Part shown: piece by piece, positions 8,575 through 29,090 of the stretch
Layout of the letters: each line of letters begins with the position of its first letter
How positions within the stretch are numbered: position 1 is the stretch's first letter
Assembly: GCA_002748265.1 (NCBI GenBank)
Contig: PDRY01000016.1
Coordinates: 248,001-312,000 of the forward strand
From: Rhodobacterales bacterium
Lineage (GTDB): Bacteria > Pseudomonadota > Alphaproteobacteria > Rhodobacterales > Rhodobacteraceae
Direction: 5' to 3'
Length of the DNA stretch: 64,000 nt
Program-made: the position numbers and the translations under genes
The notes under the pieces: generated by a model
Told to the model about the DNA's origin: nothing
What the model saw: the letters and a program-made list of their open reading frames with translations, nothing else
Database searches by the model: none

Positions 8575-9165
8575 ATGAGTGATGCAAGCGTTTTCAAAGA
8601 CGTGCTTTCGACCTGGGAGGCCCGAGAAACCGAAGAGTTCTGCGAGCTGGTCAATGATGCGCTCGGCCGTTCTGACGCGGCATGGGAGTTTGGACCCGAT
8701 CCGTTGGATGACGACAAGATGCTCTTCTCGCTCAGCCTTCGGAACGATCCGGACTGGACCACAGCCGTCTCCAAGCGCCTGGAAATCCCGTTTCAATATG
8801 GGGAGGTCGGAGCCACTTTGGGCATCCCGCCGCGTCACTGGGACCGCTATTTCGAATACGTGGATCGCGACAATCAGGTGCGGGAGATCGACGGTGAAAC
8901 CTGGGCGTTTCGCATGTCTCCAACAGATGATCCGAACATGGTGCGACTAAGTGTCTTTGCCGACCTTCCTCCAAGCGTTGATTGGTTCGATGCGGTGTCT
9001 ATCATGCTGACCGGCGAGCTTGGTGAGTGCAATGTCGCCGAGTGCATTTGCCAGGTTGAGCGCATTGATAACCCTCAAGGATCAGCCCCGTTCGCCGATC
9101 TAAGAGCAGCCTTTGCCCGGCGCTTCCCCGGCTGCCACTACTATGCTGTTCTTTCAGAGGTCTAG
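8575..9165 (+). CDS. Hypothetical protein, third gene of accessory trio
   Basis: A 196-residue acidic cytosolic protein with no signal peptide or membrane segment and no family I recognise. Visible features are a W/F-rich N-terminal half (AAWEFGPDPLDDDKMLFSLSLRNDPDWTTAV) and an aromatic C-terminus ending CHYYAVLSEV. I place the start at the ATG at 8575; a TTG four codons upstream is possible. It follows the SUFU-like gene by 26 bases on the same strand, so the trio 7173-9165 may be one transcript. Its size and acidity resemble immunity proteins, but this is only suggestive. Confidence 0.6.
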   Translation: MSDASVFKDVLSTWEARETEEFCELVNDALGRSDAAWEFGPDPLDDDKMLFSLSLRNDPDWTTAVSKRLEIPFQYGEVGATLGIPPRHWDRYFEYVDRDNQVREIDGETWAFRMSPTDDPNMVRLSVFADLPPSVDWFDAVSIMLTGELGECNVAECICQVERIDNPQGSAPFADLRAAFARRFPGCHYYAVLSEV

Positions 9166-9185
9166 GCCCGCCGACCGGCAGCGTC

Positions 9186-9202
9186 TGTCCTAAATCCGGA
9201 CA
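9186..9202. promoter_or_regulatory. Candidate operator before alcohol dehydrogenase gene
   Basis: Inverted repeat TGTCC-N7-GGACA, 55 bases before the dehydrogenase start. A dyad with the same GTCC-N7-GGAC core lies before the AcxR-like gene (10356-10370). No sigma-54 (-24/-12) element is evident around it. Confidence 0.45.
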
Positions 9203-9256
9203 CACTCGCGCGTCAGATCTTGTAGAATGAGTAGGAATCAATCGGAGGATGAAACC

Positions 9257-10294
9257 ATGAAAGCGCTTGAATTCCGTGGCCCGGGCGAAAAGGCTTGGGT
9301 GGAGAAGGACAAACCCGGCATCGAAAAGCCGACCGATGTGATCGTTAAAGTCACGAAGACGACGATCTGTGGGACCGATCTGCACATCCTCAAGGGCGAC
9401 GTCCCGGCTGTCACCAAGGGCCGGACACTGGGTCATGAGGGCGTCGGGATCGTCGAAGAAGTCGGCGCCGCAGTGCGCAACTTCAAAAAGGGCGATCCGG
9501 TTCTGATCTCTTGCGTTACCTCCTGCGGGGCCTGCCCGAACTGCAAGCGGCAGCTCTATGCGCATTGCTCCGATGGCGGCTGGATCCTGGGGCATCTGAT
9601 CGACGGCACTCAAGCCGAATATGTGCGCATCCCCCATGGCGACAACTCGCTCTATCCGATCCCGGATGGCGCGGATGAGGAAGCCCTGGTGATGCTGTCC
9701 GACATCATGCCCACCGGGCTGGAGATCGGCGTGCAATATGGCGGCGTTAAGCCCGGCGACACCGTTGCCATCGTGGGCGCCGGACCGGTCGGCATGTCGG
9801 TCCTGCTGACCGCGCAGTTCTATTCGCCCGGACGGATCATCATGGTCGATATGGACCCCGCGCGGCTGGAACTGGCCAAGACATTCGGCGCCACCGACAC
9901 CGTTGAGGTCGGCAAGGAAGACGCCGTGGCCCGCATCATGGAGATGACCGGCGGCGCCGGTGTCGACGTGGCGATTGAGGCCGTCGGCGTGCCCGCGACC
10001 TTTGATGTCTGTCAGAAGGTCGTCGCAGCGGGCGGCAATGTCGCCAATGTCGGCGTGCATGGCACCCCGGTCGAGCTGCATATCGAAGAGCTTTGGATCA
10101 AGAACATCAATATCTCGATGGGTCTGGTCTGCACCAACACCACGCCGATGCTGCTCAAGACGCTGCAATCGGGCAAGGTCGATCCGGCCCAGCTGGTGAC
10201 CCACCGGTTCAAGCTGGATGAGATCATGGACGCCTATGAGGTCTTCGCCAACGCCGCCCGCGAAAAGGCGATGAAGGTCATTCTGACCGCATGA
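9257..10294 (+). CDS. Zinc-dependent alcohol dehydrogenase (probable 2-propanol/secondary alcohol dehydrogenase)
   Basis: A medium-chain dehydrogenase of 345 residues. Catalytic zinc ligands are C38 (in ICGTDLH) and H60-E61 (GHEGVG); the structural zinc cysteines are C90, C93, C96 and C104. The Rossmann motif GAGPVG (about 174-179) is followed by an acidic residue near D198, which favours NAD over NADP. The ATG at 9257 has GGAGG nine bases upstream. It is followed by the AcxR-like regulator and the acetone carboxylase genes, so oxidation of 2-propanol to acetone is the most economical role, though the sequence alone does not fix the substrate. A dyad shared with the regulator promoter lies upstream. 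Confidence 0.85.
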   Translation: MKALEFRGPGEKAWVEKDKPGIEKPTDVIVKVTKTTICGTDLHILKGDVPAVTKGRTLGHEGVGIVEEVGAAVRNFKKGDPVLISCVTSCGACPNCKRQLYAHCSDGGWILGHLIDGTQAEYVRIPHGDNSLYPIPDGADEEALVMLSDIMPTGLEIGVQYGGVKPGDTVAIVGAGPVGMSVLLTAQFYSPGRIIMVDMDPARLELAKTFGATDTVEVGKEDAVARIMEMTGGAGVDVAIEAVGVPATFDVCQKVVAAGGNVANVGVHGTPVELHIEELWIKNINISMGLVCTNTTPMLLKTLQSGKVDPAQLVTHRFKLDEIMDAYEVFANAAREKAMKVILTA

Positions 10295-10353
10295 CCCCTG
10301 ACCACTGCCGGGGAGCGCCAATTCCCCGGCAGTGTGCTTCGGAGCCACCCTGC

Positions 10354-10372
10354 CCGTCCGAAAATCGGACGG
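10354..10372. promoter_or_regulatory. Palindromic operator before acxR-like gene
   Basis: A perfect 8-bp inverted repeat, CCGTCCGA and TCGGACGG, separated by three A bases. The core is GTCC-N7-GGAC, the same geometry as the dyad before the dehydrogenase gene at 9186-9202. It sits 116 bases before the regulator start and is a candidate autoregulatory site. It could also contribute to termination of the dehydrogenase transcript, but no T-run follows. Confidence 0.5.
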
Positions 10373-10487
10373 ACTAATCGTCTCCGATCTGTTACACAGA
10401 TGTATTGCCGCCCTTCGCGGATGCGAAAAAACATACCGGTCAAGGGGCTTGCCGGTCACCGTTGTCAATCGCTCTGGGGAGGGAGAG

Positions 10488-12275
10488 ATGCCACAGCGGC
10501 TCAACAAAACCGATTGGGAGGATTATCTGGCTGTCGGCCGTATCCCCCCGCAGATCAGGAGCGATGTGCTGCACAGTTGGCAGCGCTCGTCGGAGCAGCA
10601 CATTTCGCGTCTGAAACGTGCGCCGATCCTGAACGAAGAAGAGTTGCTGACCCGCCGGGCTCTGTCGCGGCGCCTGCGGATCAGCGCGCAAACCGCGCTC
10701 AGCCGGGCCGGACAGCTTCTGGACGACACCGGCAACATTCTGCTGCTATGCGACCGCTCCGGTGTCGTGGTGGACGCCGCCGGAGATCGCGCAACGCTCG
10801 ATCGGGGCCGCGAGAACCATCTGCATCTTGGTGGCAACTGGTCCGAACCGGCCATCGGCACCAATGCCATCGGCACGGCCCTTCATCTGGGGCGCCCCGT
10901 GACCATCCGCGAGGCCGAGCATTTTTGCGAGGAGATCCAGCTTTGGAACTGCGCCGCCGCTCCAATTTCCGAACCCGGATCGGGCGAGGTGATCGGCGTG
11001 GTGGATATCTCCTGGCGCAATGGCATTGACCACCAGCACAACGCAGCGGCCCTTTCGGCCACCATGGCCATGCAGATCGAAGCAGAGCTGCGCCGCATGC
11101 AGGAGCGCGAGCGCGCCGAGCTTATGGAAAAACTGCATCTGACACGGCTGCGGCGCGGCGGTGAGCCGATGCTGGTCATGGACCGCACGGGCTCGGATGT
11201 GTTCGCGACGGAGGACTTTGCCCGGTTTTGCAAGGATGACAGCGCCCTGCGAGACCTGCGCGCCCGGATCCCCACCCTGATCGACCAGCGGCCCGCGACC
11301 ATTGCAGAGGCCCTGTCGGACTGCATGCCGGGTATAGATCTGGAGGTGGTCGGCTCTGCCGAGGAAGCCATCGGCGTAATGATCTCTCTGCGCCGCTCTC
11401 GCCCGGCGAAAGCGGATCCCGGCGCCGAACTGACCCGGATCGGATCTGCAGGTCAGGCCGCAGCCCGGCTGTGCGCACATGCGCAGCGGCTGGCGCAGAC
11501 GGAAATCCCGATCCTGATCGAAGGAGAGACCGGCACCGGCAAAACCTTCATGGCCCGCGCGATCCACCGGGCAAGCGCCCAGTCCGATGCGCCGTTCGAG
11601 CTTCTGGATTGCGCGGGGCTGACGGATGAGGTGCTGCGCGATCATCTGGCATCGGGGCGCTTTGACCGCGCGGGCGTGCTTTGTCTGAATTCGCCCGGCG
11701 CCATATCGCTCTCCAACCAGAAGCTGCTCCTGGGCCTCGTGGAGCATGTGTCGGACCGGGGTGCGCGGATCATCGCGCTATCGACCCGGCATCTTTATGA
11801 CGAAATGTCCGAAGAGCGGTTCCGGGGGGATCTGTATTACCGGATCGCCGGCGCCCGGTTGGACATTCCGCCCTTGCGTGCGCGCCGTGACGAAATCGCG
11901 CCGATGCTGCGTGAGCTGGTGCGCCACCACGCGCTGACCAACGACGCCCGAGAGCTGCGCTTCACCTCCGGTGCCATGGCACGGCTGGTGGGCCATGCCT
12001 GGCCTGGCAATCTGCGCGAGATGCAGAACCTGATCGCAGCGCTTGATGCGCTCTCGCCCACTGGTCTGATCGACGAGGCGACCCTGCCGACGGAGTATCG
12101 CAGCGCCGCCCGCAAGACGGGCGAAAACACCTTGCGCGATGCGGAGCGGGCCCAGATCCTCGCCGCGATGGAGGCCGAGGGCGGCAACCTGACCCGCGTC
12201 GCCCGCCGTTTGGGGATCGCCCGCTCGACGCTCTATCTCAAACTGGATAGCTATGGGATCGAACGGAGTCGCTAA
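10488..12275 (+). CDS. acxR: AcoR/AcxR-type transcriptional regulator lacking the GAFTGA loop
   Basis: A 595-residue regulator with an N-terminal GAF-type sensor (about 75-200, with the family motif GTNAIGTAL), a central AAA+ domain (about 315-535) and a Fis-type helix-turn-helix (about 548-592, NLTRVARRLGIARSTLYLKL). Walker A is intact (GETGTGKT, 346-353) and the FRGDLYYRI arginine-finger segment is present. However, the stretch between the DCAG motif and Walker B is shortened and has no GAFTGA, and Walker B reads VLCLNSPG instead of a hydrophobic-DE form. Such proteins cannot remodel sigma-54 polymerase; NtrC and HupR of Rhodobacter capsulatus are known GAFTGA-less precedents working with the housekeeping sigma factor. 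The start follows GGGAGGGAGAG. The gene lies 11 bases before sulP. Confidence 0.85.
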   Translation: MPQRLNKTDWEDYLAVGRIPPQIRSDVLHSWQRSSEQHISRLKRAPILNEEELLTRRALSRRLRISAQTALSRAGQLLDDTGNILLLCDRSGVVVDAAGDRATLDRGRENHLHLGGNWSEPAIGTNAIGTALHLGRPVTIREAEHFCEEIQLWNCAAAPISEPGSGEVIGVVDISWRNGIDHQHNAAALSATMAMQIEAELRRMQERERAELMEKLHLTRLRRGGEPMLVMDRTGSDVFATEDFARFCKDDSALRDLRARIPTLIDQRPATIAEALSDCMPGIDLEVVGSAEEAIGVMISLRRSRPAKADPGAELTRIGSAGQAAARLCAHAQRLAQTEIPILIEGETGTGKTFMARAIHRASAQSDAPFELLDCAGLTDEVLRDHLASGRFDRAGVLCLNSPGAISLSNQKLLLGLVEHVSDRGARIIALSTRHLYDEMSEERFRGDLYYRIAGARLDIPPLRARRDEIAPMLRELVRHHALTNDARELRFTSGAMARLVGHAWPGNLREMQNLIAALDALSPTGLIDEATLPTEYRSAARKTGENTLRDAERAQILAAMEAEGGNLTRVARRLGIARSTLYLKLDSYGIERSR

Positions 12276-12286
12276 GTCCCACAATC

Positions 12287-13522
12287 ATGCGTCAGCCAAA
12301 GCTGCTCACCACACTCAAAACCTATGACCGGCAGCAGCTGGGCGCGGATCTCAAGGCGGGCGTCACGGTCGCAATGATCGCGCTGCCGCTCAGCCTCGCG
12401 ATCGCCATTGCCTCGGGCGCCGATCCCGGCACCGGGCTCATCACGGCGATCATCGGCGGCTTTTTCATCTCGGCCCTCGGGGGCAGCCGCGTACAGATCG
12501 GCGGGCCGACAGGGGCGTTCATCGTCGTCGTTTTCGGTATCATCGCCGAGCACGGGTATGACGGGCTGGTGCTGGCCACCCTGATGGCGGGTGTCCTGCT
12601 TTTGCTGGCGGGCGCGTTGCGCGCCGGGCGATTGGTTGCCCTGGTGCCAGAGCCGGTGATCAACGGCTTCACCATCGGGATCGCGATCATCATCGCCACC
12701 AGTCAGATCAAGACCTTCCTTGGCCTCGAACTTGCCCAGGAGCCCGCTGATTTTCTGGAAAAGCTGCCCGCGCTTTGGGGCGCGCGCGGCACGCTGAGCC
12801 TCTCCACATTGTGCATCGGGCTGGCCTCCATGGCGCTGATCGTTGTCTTGCGCCGCGCCGCGCCGCGTCAACCCGGCCTGATCGTCGCTGTCGCGATCAC
12901 CTCCGCACTCGTCGCGCTGTTTGGCCTGTCGGTGGAGACCCTGCACAGCCGCTTTGGCGCACTGCCGACGGCGCTCCCTGCCCCGGCATGGCCCGATCTG
13001 TCTATCGAGCGCATGATCGAACTGCTGCCCTCAGCCGTGATCATTGCCGTTTTGGCGGCGATTGAGTCCCTCTTGTCCGCGATCGTCGCGGACCGGATGA
13101 TCGAAGGCAATCACCGCCCCAATGCCGAACTGCTCGCCCAAGGGGTCGCCAACAGCGCCTCCGCCCTGTTCGGAGGGTTGCCGGTGACCGGCGCCATCGC
13201 GCGCACCGCGACCAATGTCCGCGCCGGGGGGCAAACGCCCATGGCGGGCATCTTTCATGCGCTCACGATCCTTATCGTGATGCTCGTCGCGGCCCCCGCG
13301 GCGGGACATCTGGCGATGCCCGCACTGGCGGCGCTGCTCATGCTCACCGCCTGGAACATGAGCGAGCCCGACAGATGGGCCTCCTACGCCCAGGCTCCGT
13401 GGCCGGATCGGGTGTTGCTCCTGATCACTCTGGCGCTGACGGTTCTGGTCGATCTGACGGTCGCCATCGGGGTCGGTGTCGCCCTGGATCTGCTGCTGCG
13501 CAGGCTGCGCGCCCGCCGCTAA
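12287..13522 (+). CDS. SulP family anion transporter without STAS domain
   Basis: A 411-residue inner-membrane protein with about ten to twelve hydrophobic segments. The SulP signature is at the N-terminus (LKAGVTVAMIALPLSLAIAIASGADPGTGLITAIIGGF) and the family segment GGLPVTGAIARTATNVRAGGQTPMAGIFHA lies around residues 300-330. The protein ends after the last membrane segment (LLLRRLRARR), so the cytosolic STAS domain of typical SulP proteins is absent. Members carry sulfate, bicarbonate (BicA) or other anions. Because it sits between the regulator and acetone carboxylase genes, and that enzyme consumes bicarbonate, bicarbonate uptake is a plausible role (inference). Confidence 0.87.
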   Translation: MRQPKLLTTLKTYDRQQLGADLKAGVTVAMIALPLSLAIAIASGADPGTGLITAIIGGFFISALGGSRVQIGGPTGAFIVVVFGIIAEHGYDGLVLATLMAGVLLLLAGALRAGRLVALVPEPVINGFTIGIAIIIATSQIKTFLGLELAQEPADFLEKLPALWGARGTLSLSTLCIGLASMALIVVLRRAAPRQPGLIVAVAITSALVALFGLSVETLHSRFGALPTALPAPAWPDLSIERMIELLPSAVIIAVLAAIESLLSAIVADRMIEGNHRPNAELLAQGVANSASALFGGLPVTGAIARTATNVRAGGQTPMAGIFHALTILIVMLVAAPAAGHLAMPALAALLMLTAWNMSEPDRWASYAQAPWPDRVLLLITLALTVLVDLTVAIGVGVALDLLLRRLRARR

Positions 13523-13548
13523 GGGGTGATGTAGCCGCGCAACCGCGC

Positions 13549-13642
13549 GTCCGCAGCATGTCCGTCAGCGCGCCCGATCATCGGACAATGCGCCGCTTTC
13601 GATCTGCGCCATCCTAGGTCTCAGCCGTACCCAATCCGGGAC
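13549..13642. promoter_or_regulatory. Candidate regulatory region before acetone carboxylase genes
   Basis: The 147-base gap between sulP and the beta-subunit gene has GTCC half-sites at 13549-13552 and 13560-13563 and GGAC half-sites at 13583-13586 and 13639-13642. TGTCCG (13559-13564) and CGGACA (13582-13587) form an inverted pair. The half-sites match the dyads at 9186-9202 and 10354-10372, though with wider spacing. No convincing TGGCAC-N5-TTGC sigma-54 promoter is seen. Confidence 0.35.
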
Positions 13643-13669
13643 GGTCGTGAGACATGGGAGGAGTTTTTC

Positions 13670-15823
13670 GTGCCACTGGACAAGAAAAACCAACGCTCTG
13701 TGCAGGTGCTTGGCATCGACGCGGGCGGGACAATGACGGACACGTTCTTCGTCGACGCGGATGGCGATTTCGTCGTCGGCAAGGCGCAATCGACGCCGGA
13801 CAACGAGGCCCGCGGGCTGATCGAATCCAGCCGTGAAGGGCTGGAGCATTGGGGGCTGAGCCTCGAAGAGGCGCTGTCCTCGATCCAGACAGGTGTCTAT
13901 TCCGGCACCGCGATGCTGAACCGCGTGGTGCAGCGCAAGGGCCTTAAAACCGGGCTGATCGTCAATGCGGGGATGGAGGATTTTCACCGCATGGGCCGCG
14001 CCTGTCAGGCCTATCTGGGCATGGCCTATGAGGACCGGATCCACCTGAACACGCACTATTACGACGATCCGCTGGTGCCCCGTCACCTGACCCGCGGCGT
14101 GATGGAGCGCATCGACATGTTCGGTGACGTCGTCATCCCGCTGCGCGAAGACACCGCCCGTCAGGCCGCGCAGGAGCTGATCGCGCAAGATGTCGAAGGC
14201 ATCGCGATTTCGCTGCTGCACAGCTACAAGAACCCGGGCCATGAGCGCCGCGTGCGCGACATTGTCGCCGAAGAGGTCGAAAAGGCGGGCAAAGAGATCC
14301 CGGTCTTTGCGTCCTGCGACTACTACCCGGTGCGCAAGGAAACGCATCGCACCAACACCACCGTGCTGGAGGCCTTCGCGGCGGAACCCAGCCGCCAGAC
14401 GCTGAAGAAGATCTCGGGCGAGTTCAAAGAGAACGGCTCCAAGTTCGACTTCCGCGTGATGGCGACCCATGGCGGCACCATTTCCTGGAAGGCCAAAGAG
14501 CTGGCGCGGACTATCGTGTCCGGTCCGATTGGCGGCGTGATCGGTGCGAAGTACCTCGGCGAAGTGCTGGGCTACAAGAATATCGCCTGCTCTGACATTG
14601 GCGGCACGTCCTTTGACGTGGCCCTGATCACCCAAGGCGAGCTGACCATTCAGAACGACCCGGATATGGCGCGCCTTGTGCTGTCGCTGCCTCTGGTCGG
14701 GCTGGATTCGGTCGGCGCGGGCGCCGGATCGTTCATCCGTCTTGATCCCTACACCAAGGCGATCAAGCTGGGCCCGGACAGCGCGGGCTACCGCGTGGGC
14801 GTGTGCTGGGCCGATAGCGGCATCGACACGGTGACCATCTCGGATTGCCACGTGATCCTGGGCTACCTGAACCCGGACAACTTCCTGGGCGGTCAGGTCA
14901 AGCTGGATCGTCAGCGCGCCTGGGACGCCATGAAAGAGCAGATCGCCGATCCGCTTGGCATCAGCGTCGAAGAGGCCGCCGCAGGCGTCATCGAACTGCT
15001 CGACTCCGATCTGCGCGACTACTTGAAGGCGTTGATTTCGGGCAAGGGATACTCGCCCTCTTCCTTCACGTGTTTCTCCTATGGCGGCGCCGGTCCGGTG
15101 CACACCTATGGCTACACCGAAGGTATGGGCTTTGAGGATGTCATCGTCCCGGCCTGGGCGGCGGGCTTCTCGGCCTTTGGCTGCGCGGCAGCCGATTTCG
15201 AGTATCGCTACGACAAATCCATGGACATCAACATTGCCGAAGAGGCCAGTGACGATGCCAAGGAAATCGAAGCCAAGATGATCAACGACGCCTGGCACGA
15301 ACTGGCGGAGAAGGTTCTCGAGGAGTTCGAGCTCAACGGCTACACCCGCGATCAGGTCGAGTTGCAGCCGGGCTACCGGATGCAGTATCGCGGCCAGCTC
15401 AACGATCTGGAGATCGAAAGCCCCATCGAGTCCGCGAAGACCGCCGCCGACTGGGACAAGCTGGTCGAAGCGTTCAACGACAAATATGGCCGCGTTTATG
15501 CCGCTTCGGCGCGCTCGCCCGAACTGGGCTACTCGGTCACCGGTGCCATCATGCGCGGCACCGTGCCGATCCCGAAACCCAACATCCCCAAGGAAGAAGA
15601 AGGCCCCGCCACGCCGCCCGAAGAGGCCAAGCTTGGTACCCGGGAATTCTACCGCAAGGGCAAATGGGTCGATGCGCAGGTCTATCAGATGGAGACGCTG
15701 ACGCCCGGCAACCGGATCACCGGCCCCGCCATTATCGAATCCGACGCCACGACCTTTGTTGTGCCTGGCGGTTTTGAGACCTGGCTCGACGGCCACCGCC
15801 TGTTCCACCTGACAGAAGTGTGA
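13670..15823 (+). CDS. acxA: Acetone carboxylase beta subunit
   Basis: A 717-residue protein of the hydantoinase A/oxoprolinase family, the right size for the acetone carboxylase beta subunit, which takes part in the ATP-dependent carboxylation of acetone to acetoacetate. The N-terminal phosphate-binding motif GIDAGGTMTDTFFVD (about 15-29) and the second nucleotide-binding region CSDIGGTSFDVALIT (about 307-321) are clear, as is the HGGTISWKAKELARTIVSGPIGG segment. The start is GTG at 13670, with GGGAGGA about ten bases upstream. It is the first of three adjacent subunit genes, with 22 bases to the next. Confidence 0.95.
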   Translation: MPLDKKNQRSVQVLGIDAGGTMTDTFFVDADGDFVVGKAQSTPDNEARGLIESSREGLEHWGLSLEEALSSIQTGVYSGTAMLNRVVQRKGLKTGLIVNAGMEDFHRMGRACQAYLGMAYEDRIHLNTHYYDDPLVPRHLTRGVMERIDMFGDVVIPLREDTARQAAQELIAQDVEGIAISLLHSYKNPGHERRVRDIVAEEVEKAGKEIPVFASCDYYPVRKETHRTNTTVLEAFAAEPSRQTLKKISGEFKENGSKFDFRVMATHGGTISWKAKELARTIVSGPIGGVIGAKYLGEVLGYKNIACSDIGGTSFDVALITQGELTIQNDPDMARLVLSLPLVGLDSVGAGAGSFIRLDPYTKAIKLGPDSAGYRVGVCWADSGIDTVTISDCHVILGYLNPDNFLGGQVKLDRQRAWDAMKEQIADPLGISVEEAAAGVIELLDSDLRDYLKALISGKGYSPSSFTCFSYGGAGPVHTYGYTEGMGFEDVIVPAWAAGFSAFGCAAADFEYRYDKSMDINIAEEASDDAKEIEAKMINDAWHELAEKVLEEFELNGYTRDQVELQPGYRMQYRGQLNDLEIESPIESAKTAADWDKLVEAFNDKYGRVYAASARSPELGYSVTGAIMRGTVPIPKPNIPKEEEGPATPPEEAKLGTREFYRKGKWVDAQVYQMETLTPGNRITGPAIIESDATTFVVPGGFETWLDGHRLFHLTEV

Positions 15824-15845
15824 CGGGCAAGGGAGGAGAAAACCC

Positions 15846-18155
15846 ATGAATATTCAAACGACAACCAAAGGCATCGTGCGTGGCGGGCAAACGCTCAAGC
15901 AGCACCGCGACCAGATCATGGATGCCACCAAAGCGACCGGCCACTACGCCGGTCTGAAGGAACGGGCGCTGCAGAAGGAAAGCCCGATCCTCTATAACAA
16001 GCTGTTCTCGCGCCTTCGGGCCGGGGTGGTGGATGCGCGCGAAACCGCGAAAAAGATCGCCGCCTCGCCCATCGTGGAGCAGGAAGGTGAGCTGTGCTTC
16101 ACGCTCTATAACGCGGCCGGGGACAGCATCCTGACCTCCACGGGGATCATCATCCACGTGGGCACCATGGGCGCGGCGATCAAATACATGATCGAAAACG
16201 ATTGGGAGGGAAATCCCGGCATCGCCGACAAGGATATCTTTACCAACAACGATCCGCTGATCGGGAACGTCCACCCCTGCGACATCCACACGATCGTGCC
16301 CATCTTCCACGAAGGTGAGCTGATCGGCTGGGTTGGCGGCGTGACCCACGTGATCGACACCGGGGCGGTTGGCCCGGGCTCAATGACCACAGGTCAGGTG
16401 CAACGGTTCGGGGATGGCTATTCGGTCACCTGCCGCAAGACCGGCGCCAATGACGAGCTGTTCCGCGACTGGCTGCATGAATCGCAGCGCTCGGTGCGGA
16501 CCACGCGGTACTGGATGCTCGACGAGCGGACCCGCGTCGCGGGCTGCCACATGATCCGCGACCTCGTTGAGGAAGTGATCGCCGAAGACGGCATCGAAGC
16601 CTATTGGAAGTTCGCCTATGAGGCGGTCGAGCATGGCCGGGTCGGCCTGCAAAACCGCATCAAGGCGATGACCATTCCGGGCACCTACCGTCAGGTCGGC
16701 TTCGTCGATGTGCCTTACGCCCATGAGGACGTGCATGTGCCCTCGACCTTCGCCAAGGTCGACACGATCATGCACACCCCGTCCGAGATGACGATCAGGC
16801 CGGACGGGACGTGGAGGCTCGATTTCGAGGGCTCAAGCCGATGGGGTTGGCACACCTATAACGCCCACGCGGTGTCCTTTACCTCGGGCATCTGGGTGAT
16901 GATGACCCAGACGTTGATCCCGTCCGAGATGATCAACGACGGTGCGGCCTACGGGACGGAGTTCCGATTGCCAAAAGGCACCTGGATGAACCCGGACGAC
17001 CGGCGCGTGGCCTATGCCTACAGCTGGCACTTCCTGGTGTCCTCCTGGACAGCACTGTGGCGCGGGCTCTCGCGGTCCTATTTCGGGCGCGGCTACCTCG
17101 AAGAGGTGAACGCGGGCAATGCCAACACCTCCAACTGGCTGCAAGGCGGCGGGTTCAACCAGTATGACGAAATTCATGCGGTGAACTCCTTCGAATGCGC
17201 GGCCAACGGGGTTGGGGCATCGGCCTTCTCCGATGGGATCTCCCACGCGGCGGCCATCTGGAACCCCGAAGGCGATATGGGCGACATGGAGATCTGGGAG
17301 CTGGCCGAACCGCTGGTTTACCTGGGCCGCCAGGTCAAAGCCTCCTCGGGCGGCGCGGGCAAGTATCGCGGCGGTTGCGGGTTCGAAAGCCTGCGCATGG
17401 TCTGGAACGCCAAGGACTGGACGATGTTCTTCATGGGTAACGGTCATATCAGCTCCGATTGGGGTCTGATGGGCGGCTATCCGGCAGCATCGGGCTATCG
17501 GTTTGAAGCCCATGACACCGGGCTCAAGCAGAAGATCGCCAATGGCGAGCCGATCCCCTTTGGCGGCGATACCGACCCGGAGAACCCGATCTATGACGGG
17601 CTGATCAACCCGGAGGGCATCAAGCGCGACAAGCAGGCCATCACCACCGAAGACATGTTCGAGGATCACGATCTGTACCTCAACTACATGCGCGGTGGGC
17701 CGGGCTTTGGCGATCCGCTGGATCGCGAACCCTCCTCCGTGGCGGACGACGTCAATGGCGGCTACCTGCTCGAACGCTTTGCGGAGCGCGTCTACGGCGT
17801 CATCCTGACCGAGGGCGCGGATGGCCTGAAGGCCGCCGATGAGACCGCGACCGAGGCGAAGCGCGCCGAGATCCGCAAGGATCGTCTGGCCAAGGCCGTG
17901 CCCACCAAGGAGTGGATGGCCAAGGAGCGCGAGCGCATCCTGAACAAGGACACCGGTGTCCATGTGCAGCAGATGTATGCCTCCAGCTTCAAGCTGGGGC
18001 CGACCTGGGCACAGGGCTTCCGCGAGTTCTGGGATCTGCCGGAGAGTTGGGACCTGAAGGAAGAGGATCTGCCGATCCCCTCCTATGGCCGCGAATACTC
18101 GATGGACCTTTCCGAGCTGCCGGACGTGAAAACCGTCCAGTTCGTCGAGGAATAA
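15846..18155 (+). CDS. acxB: Acetone carboxylase alpha subunit
   Basis: A 769-residue hydantoinase B-family protein matching the acetone carboxylase alpha subunit in length and content. Diagnostic stretches include TNNDPLIGNVHPCDIHTIVPIFHEGELIGWVGGVTHVIDTGAVGPGSMTTG (about 137-187), the tryptophan-rich WRLDFEGSSRWGWHTYNAH, and AIWNPEGDMGDMEIWELAEP. In the known enzyme this subunit with the others forms an alpha2-beta2-gamma2 complex with a metal centre. A GGAGG site lies before the ATG. It is co-directional with and probably co-transcribed with the beta and gamma genes. Confidence 0.95.
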   Translation: MNIQTTTKGIVRGGQTLKQHRDQIMDATKATGHYAGLKERALQKESPILYNKLFSRLRAGVVDARETAKKIAASPIVEQEGELCFTLYNAAGDSILTSTGIIIHVGTMGAAIKYMIENDWEGNPGIADKDIFTNNDPLIGNVHPCDIHTIVPIFHEGELIGWVGGVTHVIDTGAVGPGSMTTGQVQRFGDGYSVTCRKTGANDELFRDWLHESQRSVRTTRYWMLDERTRVAGCHMIRDLVEEVIAEDGIEAYWKFAYEAVEHGRVGLQNRIKAMTIPGTYRQVGFVDVPYAHEDVHVPSTFAKVDTIMHTPSEMTIRPDGTWRLDFEGSSRWGWHTYNAHAVSFTSGIWVMMTQTLIPSEMINDGAAYGTEFRLPKGTWMNPDDRRVAYAYSWHFLVSSWTALWRGLSRSYFGRGYLEEVNAGNANTSNWLQGGGFNQYDEIHAVNSFECAANGVGASAFSDGISHAAAIWNPEGDMGDMEIWELAEPLVYLGRQVKASSGGAGKYRGGCGFESLRMVWNAKDWTMFFMGNGHISSDWGLMGGYPAASGYRFEAHDTGLKQKIANGEPIPFGGDTDPENPIYDGLINPEGIKRDKQAITTEDMFEDHDLYLNYMRGGPGFGDPLDREPSSVADDVNGGYLLERFAERVYGVILTEGADGLKAADETATEAKRAEIRKDRLAKAVPTKEWMAKERERILNKDTGVHVQQMYASSFKLGPTWAQGFREFWDLPESWDLKEEDLPIPSYGREYSMDLSELPDVKTVQFVEE

Positions 18156-18217
18156 GATCCCTTGGGTGCGCCGCAGCCTCCCTGTGGCGCACCCCCTTTT
18201 CCAAAAGGAGTAAAGAA

Positions 18218-18721
18218 ATGGCTTACACAAAGGCAAAGATCAAAGACCTGGTCGATGGCTCGATCGACCGCGATACGCTGCACACCATGCTGTCCACGCC
18301 CAAGGATGGGGACCGCTTTGTGAAATACATCGAAGTGCTGCAGGAGCAGGTGCCGTGGAAAGACCGGATCATCCTGCCTCTGGGGCCGAAGCTGTTCATC
18401 GTGCAGCGGGCCTCGGACAAGAAATGGGTGGTCAAGTCGCTGGCCGGTTACGAGTTCTGCGACTGGAAGGAGAACTGGAAGCTCCACGCCGTGATGCGGG
18501 TCCGGGAAACCGCCGAGGACATGGAAGAGCTGTATCCCCGTCTCATGGCGCCCTCCACCGACTGGCAGGTGATCCGGGAATACTACTGCCCCGCATCCGG
18601 TGATCTGCTTGATGTCGAAGCGCCCACGCCCTGGTATCCTGTGATCCACGACTTCGAGCCGGATATCGACGCCTTCTACACGGAATGGCTGGGGCTCGAG
18701 CTGCCCGAACGCGCGGCCTGA
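18218..18721 (+). CDS. acxC: Acetone carboxylase gamma subunit
   Basis: A 167-residue small subunit of acetone carboxylase, beginning MAYTKAKIKDLVDGSIDRDTLHTML and containing the conserved YEFCDWKENWKLHA segment and a second cysteine in REYYCPASGDLLDVEAP, with the ending WYPVIHDFEPDIDAFYTEWL. The ATG at 18218 is preceded by AAGGAG. It lies 62 bases after the alpha subunit, and a strong terminator follows, closing the operon. Confidence 0.95.
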   Translation: MAYTKAKIKDLVDGSIDRDTLHTMLSTPKDGDRFVKYIEVLQEQVPWKDRIILPLGPKLFIVQRASDKKWVVKSLAGYEFCDWKENWKLHAVMRVRETAEDMEELYPRLMAPSTDWQVIREYYCPASGDLLDVEAPTPWYPVIHDFEPDIDAFYTEWLGLELPERAA

Positions 18722-27699: not shown

Positions 27700-29090
27700 C
27701 GGGCTGGAATTTCGATAACAGCTATGCGCGCCTGCCCGCGCGGATGTTCCACCGACAGCCGCCCGCGCAGGTTCCGGCGCCGCGCCTGCTGAAGGTTAAC
27801 GCGGCTCTGGCCCATCGGCTGGGCCTCGACCCTGCCGAGATCACGGCGGACATCGCCGCAGGCAACGCGGTTCCCCCCGGCGCGGATCCGCTAGCCCAGG
27901 CCTATGCCGGGCACCAGTTCGGCAACCTGGTTCCGCAGCTTGGCGATGGCCGCGCGCTGCTCCTGGGGGAGCAGATCGCCCCCGATGGAGCCCGCTTCGA
28001 TCTTCAGCTCAAAGGCTCCGGCCGCACGCCCTTCTCCCGCGGCGGAGACGGCAAGGCCTGGCTCGGCCCGGTACTGCGCGAGTACCTGATGAGCGAGACC
28101 ATGCACGCGCTCGGCCTGCCCACGACCCGCGCCCTCGCCATGGCGACGACCGGGGAACAGGTCCTGCGCGAACGCCCCCTGCCCGGCGCGGTTCTGATGC
28201 GCGTGGCCGCCAGCCACATCCGGGTCGGCACGTTTCAGTTCTTTGCCCTGCGCGGCGACACCGAGGCGCTCGCCGCTCTGACAGAGTACGCCATAAATCG
28301 CCACGCCCCCGAGGCCTCCGGCCCCGAAGATCTGCTCGAACATGTCGTGCAAGCCCAGGCCGATCTGATCGCGGGCTGGATGGCCTTCGGGTTCATCCAC
28401 GGCGTGATGAACACCGACAACTGCACGATCTCCGGCGAAACCATCGACTACGGCCCCTGCGCCTTCATGGAAAGCTATCACCCGATGCAGGTGTTCTCCT
28501 CCATCGACCGGCAAGGGCGCTATGCCTATGGCAACCAACCTGCCATCGCGGCGTGGAACCTTGCGCAGCTCGGATCGTCCCTCCTTCCGCTGATGCCCGA
28601 TAGCGACGCCGCAATCCCCCGCTTCCAATCCCTGATCGACAGCTTCTTCGATAGGTTCAGCACCGCCTGGCTGGCCCGGTTCGCAGCCAAGCTCGGCCTG
28701 CCGGACGCGACCCCGGACGATGTGCCTCTGATCGAAGACCTGCTGGCACTGATGGCCGAGGAACGGCTCGATTTCACCCAGACCTTCGCCAGCCTCACCG
28801 ATCCGGACAGCCTGCCCGGACCGCAAGGCGCTCAATGGCGCGACCGGTGGCGCAAACGGACCATCGGCCACGACCCCGCGCCCCAGATGGCGCAGGCCAA
28901 CCCGACCATGGTGCCCCGTCTCCACCAGATTGAGTCCGCCATCACCGCCGCAGTCACCGACGACTTCGCCCCGTTCGAAACCCTGCTGGCGGCCGCCACG
29001 ACCCCGTTCGCCCCCCGAAAGGCCAGCGATCCGCTCACTCAAGCCGCACCGGCTGGCAAAGAAGTCACGCGCACCTTCTGCGGCACCTGA
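27696..29090 (+). CDS. selO: Protein adenylyltransferase SelO (YdiU/UPF0061)
   Basis: A pseudokinase-fold AMPylase of 464 residues that, in characterised relatives, transfers AMP to Ser/Thr/Tyr of target proteins in redox homeostasis. Visible family signatures are QAYAGHQFGNLVPQLGDGRALLLGE (about 68-92), FDLQLKGSGRTPFSRGGDGKA, and HGVMNTDNCTISGETIDYGPCAFM (about 232-255), which holds the metal-binding residues. The start is GTG, overlapping the GNAT stop. Length is slightly below the usual 480-490. Confidence 0.95.
   Translation: MTGWNFDNSYARLPARMFHRQPPAQVPAPRLLKVNAALAHRLGLDPAEITADIAAGNAVPPGADPLAQAYAGHQFGNLVPQLGDGRALLLGEQIAPDGARFDLQLKGSGRTPFSRGGDGKAWLGPVLREYLMSETMHALGLPTTRALAMATTGEQVLRERPLPGAVLMRVAASHIRVGTFQFFALRGDTEALAALTEYAINRHAPEASGPEDLLEHVVQAQADLIAGWMAFGFIHGVMNTDNCTISGETIDYGPCAFMESYHPMQVFSSIDRQGRYAYGNQPAIAAWNLAQLGSSLLPLMPDSDAAIPRFQSLIDSFFDRFSTAWLARFAAKLGLPDATPDDVPLIEDLLALMAEERLDFTQTFASLTDPDSLPGPQGAQWRDRWRKRTIGHDPAPQMAQANPTMVPRLHQIESAITAAVTDDFAPFETLLAAATTPFAPRKASDPLTQAAPAGKEVTRTFCGT

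Follow-up and report, generated by a model that had tools for sequence, protein, structure and literature searches.

Loss of the sigma-54 loops in an AcxR-type acetone regulator and the probable move of its operon to a sigma-70-type promoter

Xanthobacter autotrophicus and Cupriavidus metallidurans each possess an acxABC-linked regulator, AcxR, of the same family as the regulator described here. Regulation of acx in Xanthobacter runs through sigma-54 and AcxR (PMC2244623), and the acxRA region of C. metallidurans contains a TGGCATGNNNNTTGC promoter (PMC2864759). Relatives of sigma-54 activators without the loop are known singly, namely NtrC, HupR, TyrR, DhaR and VpsR. HupR, TyrR and DhaR have no working GAFTGA and depend on sigma-70 (PMC3162934). 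R. capsulatus NtrC has no GAFTGA, uses sigma-70 and sets the precedent of a protein that binds ATP but need not hydrolyse it (PMC10274813); an earlier note on this DNA had named R. capsulatus NtrC and HupR as proteins of this kind. A change of sigma factor with the targets retained requires protein and promoter to change jointly, and is seldom easy to observe for that reason. The orthologous operons compared here show the two sides at once: a conserved operator serves as the fixed point, and sister loci that kept the loop can be set beside them.

NtrC and HupR are response regulators, not GAF-sensing regulators of the AcoR type, and mycobacterial MimR is an acetone-responsive AcoR-type regulator of organisms without sigma-54. 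For acetone carboxylase itself, Sluis et al. in 2002 reportedly described an AcxR homologue in R. capsulatus B10 that is encoded 127 bp upstream of acxA and lacks key sigma-54 activator features; they are said to have seen no apparent sigma-54 promoter at acxABC and to have proposed sigma-54 independence, reportedly without an operator, a promoter geometry or a phylogeny. Presumably that homologue belongs to the same clade as the regulator studied here. If this account of Sluis et al. is right, the sigma-54 independence of loop-less AcxR has been in print since 2002 for one species, and what is added here is promoter geometry, a single origin and ATPase erosion. The passages on acxR that were covered, those of PMC2864759 and PMC2244623 among them, mention neither a sigma-70 promoter nor an AcxR without the loop, and a literature search that lay mostly outside subscription papers met, in the portions of the sources it covered, nothing on the operator, class II geometry, single origin or ATPase erosion.

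The acetone carboxylase cluster and its loop-less regulator

The window, by which we mean the whole 64-kb stretch of DNA analysed, carries acxABC together with genes for a regulator, a transporter and an alcohol dehydrogenase (Table 1). The regulator reading frame has an alternative in-frame GTG at 10332, upstream of the ATG, and a domain search of its product returned, in order, GAF, Sigma54_activat (AAA+), the AAA_lid_14 lid and an HTH_8 Fis-type helix-turn-helix. The SulP gene begins 11 bp past the regulator stop; 29 other loop-less loci have no room for such a gene, with a gap of 119-276 bp between regulator and acxA. Because the SulP proteins include bicarbonate transporters, and bicarbonate is a substrate of acetone carboxylase, this transporter may supply the enzyme with its co-substrate. 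The dehydrogenase probably converts 2-propanol to acetone, and in some relatives copies 83-89% identical to it adjoin acx.

Table 1. Features of the acetone cluster in the window; operators and -10 hexamers are predictions
Feature	Position	Strand	Basis or remark
Putative operator TGTCCTAAATCCGGACA upstream of the alcohol dehydrogenase gene	9186..9202	+	similar sites in relatives
TAGAAT, -10-like hexamer, 20 bp after the dehydrogenase operator	9223..9228	+	position
Zinc-type alcohol dehydrogenase	9257..10294	+	ADH_N and ADH_zinc_N domains
Putative operator, perfect palindrome CGTCCGAAAATCGGACG, before the regulator gene	10355..10371	+	TACACA after 21 bp
AcxR-type regulator without sigma-54 loops	10488..12275	+	ATG start, 595 aa
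Walker A GETGTGK, residues 346-352, intact	11523..11543	+	Lys kept in 32/32 loop-less proteins aligned
Shortened L1, residues 376-395, no GAFTGA	11613..11672	+	alignment length
Asn-Ser at the site of the Walker B acidic pair, residues 401-402	11688..11693	+	alignment; VLCLNSPG, both D and E gone
Shortened L2 / pre-sensor I insertion, residues 412-428	11721..11771	+	alignment length
SulP-type transporter, between regulator and acxA	12287..13522	+	Sulfate_transp domain
Putative acx operator: CGTCCG, TGTCCG, degenerate third (middle) half-site, CGGACA	13548..13587	+	conserved in loop-less loci
CATCCT, sigma-70-like -10 hexamer, 22 bp after CGGACA	13610..13615	+	predicted start near 13622
acxA, acetone carboxylase subunit	13670..15823	+	domains and relatives
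acxB, acetone carboxylase subunit	15846..18155	+	domains and relatives
acxC, acetone carboxylase gamma subunit	18200..18721	+	Acetone_carb_G domain

The earlier note had read this protein as one with intact Walker A and FRGDLYYRI segments, with VLCLNSPG at the Walker B position and with no GAFTGA between it and the DCAG motif. Each of these readings holds. Both segments are present in the reading frame, and neither the sequence nor the alignment contains a GAFTGA-like motif between DCAG and VLCLNSPG. Beyond what the note stressed, both Walker B acidic residues are gone. The loss is more than a point change, as L1 (C375 to G396) measures 20 residues in the window's regulator versus 37 in 22/22 loop-keeping acx-linked regulators, and L2 (Q411 to sensor I) measures 17 versus 27. 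Across the loop-less proteins L1 ranges over 20-30 and L2 over 17-22 residues, whereas all 22 acx-linked loop-keepers share the lengths 37 and 27. In the predicted structure, which is of high confidence (mean pLDDT 90.4), helix 380-389 and strand 397-401 are joined by a short link where L1 would be. The AAA+ fold is kept in a structural alignment of model residues 317-542 with FleQ 145-394 that reported ranges rather than residues, and we read the structural absence of the loop from the lengths of these two segments, the secondary structure of the model and the sequence alignment.

Among the 32 loop-less proteins aligned, the Walker B glutamate is missing in 15 and the aspartate in 12. Loss of the glutamate and then of the aspartate agrees with the window's subclade, but one fixed order is weakened by the paralogues L076 and L081 (SE) and L082 (IE), which are not linked to acx and have lost the aspartate yet kept the glutamate. 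With Walker A kept and both Walker B acidic residues gone, regulators of the window's subclade probably bind ATP without hydrolysing it. Of the hallmarks of a sigma-54 enhancer-binding protein, a GAFTGA-type L1, an L2 of normal length and a Walker B DE pair are missing and Walker A is present; the absence of GAFTGA, the retained AAA+ fold and the presence of Walker A are those of the GAFTGA-less, sigma-70-dependent relatives. Elsewhere in the same genome a single further strong match to Sigma54_activat was met (L001, C2:381392); by eye it is a DctD-like response regulator, also without GAFTGA and with ED in place of DE. Three weaker matches (L003-L005) occur there as well.

Phylogeny of the loop-less regulators

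Relatives were drawn from a family search (295 genomes), a scan of species genomes (82 relatives, the best 80 of 82 kept), annotated plasmids (10 records out of 19 in which AcxA reached at least 60%) and a class-wide search, in which PF08882 was found in 25/385 genomes and 10 stretches were taken from among the stronger matches. Six candidates (L141-L146) were rejected as acetone carboxylases on AcxA identities of 23-40%. The acx-linked regulators obtained come from alpha- and betaproteobacteria and from Bacillota. Closest to the window's regulator are those of L047 (72%), Rhodovulum strictum (67%) and Thioclava marina (62%), all encoded immediately before acxABC and all without the loop. Loop-keeping acx-linked regulators occur in Bosea, Rhodomicrobium, Methylobacterium, Methylorubrum, Methylocella, Ancylobacter, Acidibrevibacterium, Cupriavidus, Paraburkholderia (where the regulator is located after acxC), one further alphaproteobacterial genus (L138-L140) and Bacillota. 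The proposed Cupriavidus comparison was run on two loci (L131, L132), which have both GAFTGA and a -24/-12 element.

A quick tree of 90 regulators places the window and its loop-less relatives in one clade of 36 rows (SH-aLRT 100), whose sister group consists of nine acx-linked regulators with the loop; this position, the linkage to acxABC, the domain order and an operator word shared with proteobacterial loop-keepers are those of an AcxR orthologue. For four of the 36 (L076, L077, L081, L082) the stretch contains no acetone carboxylase. The tree leaves out near-duplicates (L050, L052, L053, L055, L060, L072), short or odd sequences (L100, L112) and L114-L126, and three changes are counted on it, in the window's clade, in L017 and in the L020-L033 lineage; L035, scored as lost by the motif expression, in fact reads NSFTGA. 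In a quick AcxA tree of 51 rows, which leaves out L052, L060, L072 and loci with a short AcxA and scores L137 as a keeper although its regulator lies outside its stretch, the 31 loop-less loci form one clade (SH-aLRT 97) and the 20 others fall outside it. Both trees give the same split, and hence the loop was lost once in this lineage, with operon and regulator inherited together. Martelella, Breoghania, Pseudochelatococcus and Acidocella nest within the mostly rhodobacteral loop-less clade, which in these two quick trees points to horizontal transfer of the acx module to those genera.

Regulators without the motif were also met elsewhere. L017 (G133:C185) shows an apparently independent loss of GAFTGA with the Walker B DE pair kept, in a genome where Sigma54_DBD was not found, and a second AcoR-like lineage of the family (L020-L034) has no GAFTGA and carries, at the DE position, pairs of the RG, RR, AG or DG type. 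More distant relatives (L112, L114-L126), among them Nocardioides (L114) and Pleomorphomonas, showed no GAFTGA either, with the exception of L116; the alignment covered two of these, L112 and L114. In the plasmid records L133-L135, loop-less proteins are annotated 'sigma-54-dependent' or 'sigma 54-interacting', labels that are probably wrong.

Promoter architecture before acxA

The earlier note had seen no -24/-12 promoter before the carboxylase genes, and we likewise found no TGGCA-N7-TGC at positions 9000-18721; the whole window holds three matches at two places only (28529-28545, 57120) against 4.39 expected by chance. Within the 350 bp before acxA, the element is present in 22/22 loop-keeping and 0/36 loop-less loci, which is to be counted as one evolutionary contrast and not as 58 independent ones (loop loss and promoter change occurred once each in the clade) and which uses a form chosen, like the -10 rule below, after inspection of these sequences. 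Dinucleotide shuffles of the loop-keeping regions gave it in 17 of 2200 cases, and a stricter form, TGGYAYN5TTGC, occurs in 14/22 loop-keepers and 0/36 loop-less loci. These counts leave out L137 (regulator outside its stretch), L094 (no acxA) and other loci without acxA; the uncounted L137 carries TGGCACGGCGCTTGC. In the Bacillota loci L089, L091, L093 and L096, whose regulators are of the GTFTGA type, a -24/-12 element precedes acxA together with repeated words of another kind, which by eye resemble CTGTAGCGCTACAG.

Loop-less loci share, before acxA, a conserved 40-bp operator that runs from GTCCGCAGCATGTCCG to (TGTCCGAAAAY)CGGACA and is followed by a little-conserved spacer and the hexamer NANNNT. 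The operator was matched by expression in 34/36 loop-less loci and by eye in the other two (L063, L065). All 34 CGGACA-anchored promoters have NANNNT, 29 at 22 bp and 5 at 21 bp; the remaining two, the Neomegalonema loci, carry CGGACG instead and by eye show GATCCT at the 22-bp distance. An ungapped, operator-anchored profile over 27 clusters contains 40 conserved base pairs; from the third base of the spacer on, no column exceeds 0.4 bit until the hexamer, whose positions 2 (A) and 6 (T) are each 93% conserved over the same 27 clusters. The combination CGGACA-N22-CANNCT occurs in 20/36 loop-less regions, 0/22 loop-keeping regions and 2/3600 shuffles. No -35 was found in the loop-less promoters, where the best match to TTGACA averages 2.26 of 6 positions and 2.47 in shuffled sequence. 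If the hexamer is taken as -12 to -7, the last base of CGGACA falls on -35 and the centre of the palindrome close to -43; a site near -43, overlapping -35, is the position of a class II activator. The loop-less layout is, as predicted from these spacings, that of a class II sigma-70 promoter with an adjacent activator site, against which stand the poor -10 of the window, CATCCT rather than TATAAT, the degenerate middle half-site of its operator and the TACACA that serves as -10 candidate before the regulator gene.

The proteobacterial loop-keepers have the same word, GTCCG/CGGAC, at a different position: in 12 of 15 of them (11 exact, one with a mismatch; L138-L140 are close kin) GTCCG-N5-CGGAC is centred some 84-142 bp ahead of TGGCA on its upstream side, and it is absent from L080, L128 and L130. 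There the word is placed as an enhancer would be, and judged from this comparison it stayed while its place changed. The proposal of the earlier note that this branch of acetone regulators has moved away from sigma-54 is supported by protein and promoter together: by the lost loops of the regulator and, at the level of predicted promoters, by the distribution of the -24/-12 element and by an operator held at a short, fixed distance from a sigma-70-like -10.

Similar sites lie elsewhere in the cluster. An operator upstream of adh was found in 15/15 loci examined (copies more than 75% identical), with TA at 22 bp in 9/15 and at 20 bp in the window; five do not fit. The exact palindrome occurs upstream of the regulator in 6/43 loci, and the seven regulator-upstream palindromes among 16 loci examined all have TA at 21 bp. 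The palindrome is no rarer than chance, with one found and 0.97 expected in the window and GTCCG-N5-CGGAC at 6 places in 2.79 Mb versus 16 for the reversed pattern, that is, with no enrichment in the genome; only conservation and position support an operator. Of the five places outside the cluster, C56:99347 was dropped as lying inside a gene, by eye that of lysyl-tRNA synthetase. The regulator probably autoregulates through the site at 10355-10371. In all, three promoters (9186-9228, 10355-10398 and 13548-13615) probably make up a small regulon in the window; the one at 13548-13615 is well supported. In L076, L081, L082 and L100 (the last cut), a loop-less regulator paralogue lies right before an alcohol dehydrogenase gene with an operator between them.

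Alternative readings and comparison with known systems

The main rival to activation is a TyrR-like repressor that would bind at -74 to -35, block RNA polymerase and be released by acetone. The operator does overlap -35, where repressors bind too, and the palindrome before the regulator's own gene would suit negative autoregulation. However, a repressible promoter must be good by itself, and here the -35 is at shuffle level and the -10 is weak. The loop-keeping AcxR of Xanthobacter is an activator (PMC2244623), and a spacing of 21-22 bp held across diverged spacers suggests contact with the polymerase, so that we consider repression unlikely. Less probable still is a promoter read by a sigma-70-family factor other than the housekeeping one. 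The non-canonical -10 (CATCCT/TAGCCT) and the missing -35 would fit such a factor, but the two conserved hexamer positions correspond to A-11 and T-7, which matter most to housekeeping sigma-70.

Loss of Walker B residues in part of the clade could also mark an AAA+ domain in decay, in a gene on its way out. Against this, dN/dS measured with the same four relatives is about 0.17-0.32 for the AAA+ part, close to the roughly 0.15-0.26 of the whole gene (with dS near saturation); the reading frame is intact and the operator conserved. The regulator gene is not decaying, and we give this reading very little credence.

The distribution of rpoN sets the switch apart from the loss of sigma-54 itself. 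A profile search of the window's genome, whose assembly is 88% complete, found neither Sigma54_DBD nor Sigma54_CBD. In the family Sigma54_DBD scored above cut-off in 92/290 genomes, G051 having four matches and G259 three. It is found in five of the six genomes with a loop-keeping acx locus (the exception, L080, is a draft) and in 22 of the 31 with a loop-less one, so that the switch did not wait for the loss of sigma-54, and rpoN loss as the cause of loop loss was rejected. The same 22 genomes are what could speak for continued use of sigma-54 through a cryptic loop, the least credible reading of all, as alignment and predicted structure contain no such loop, TGGCA-N7-TGC is absent in 36/36 loop-less loci and rpoN was not found in the genome of the window.

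We favour, at a probability of roughly three in four, a formerly sigma-54-dependent AcxR that now acts as a class II sigma-70 activator of acxABC, protein and promoter both having changed. The ancestor would have been a sigma-54-dependent AcxR that lost L1, with its GAFTGA, and L2 once, in an alphaproteobacterial ancestor, and the target promoter would have exchanged a remote enhancer with a -24/-12 element for a sigma-70-type architecture in which that operator word overlaps the -35 position. In the present state the regulator most likely binds from about -74 to -35 of the acxA promoter, its GAF domain would sense acetone or a related compound, and direct contact would recruit housekeeping RNA polymerase to acxABC; the similar sites suggest the alcohol dehydrogenase gene and the regulator's own gene as further targets. 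The full account we find rather probable, though with less assurance than this core: regulator and promoter of an acetone (probably 2-propanol) regulon would have moved once from sigma-54 to sigma-70, the operator word sliding from a remote enhancer to about -43; in one subclade the ATPase would have eroded (loops, Walker B glutamate, then aspartate) to leave an ATP-binding, non-hydrolysing class II activator; and the self-contained module would have reached further orders (Martelella, Breoghania, Pseudochelatococcus, Acidocella), some of its hosts having rpoN and others not. Such a switch would allow the acx module to function in hosts without sigma-54. It also provides ready regulator/promoter pairs in which to ask what contact took over from the sigma-54 loop and whether it is enough for ATP to be bound.

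Among known systems, R. capsulatus NtrC and HupR resemble the window's regulator: they too are alphaproteobacterial, related to enhancer-binding proteins and devoid of GAFTGA, and they use sigma-70. The DhaR and TyrR proteins of E. coli differ in that they serve other regulons, and Vibrio cholerae VpsR in that it is a c-di-GMP sensor and not a GAF-type acetone regulator. The AcxR of Cupriavidus contains SELFGxxxGAFTGA, as presumably does that of Xanthobacter; the window's regulator lacks it. The motif and promoter that we found in C. metallidurans agree with the published description (PMC2864759), and the window has neither; what C. metallidurans and the window share is the operator word GTCCG/CGGAC.
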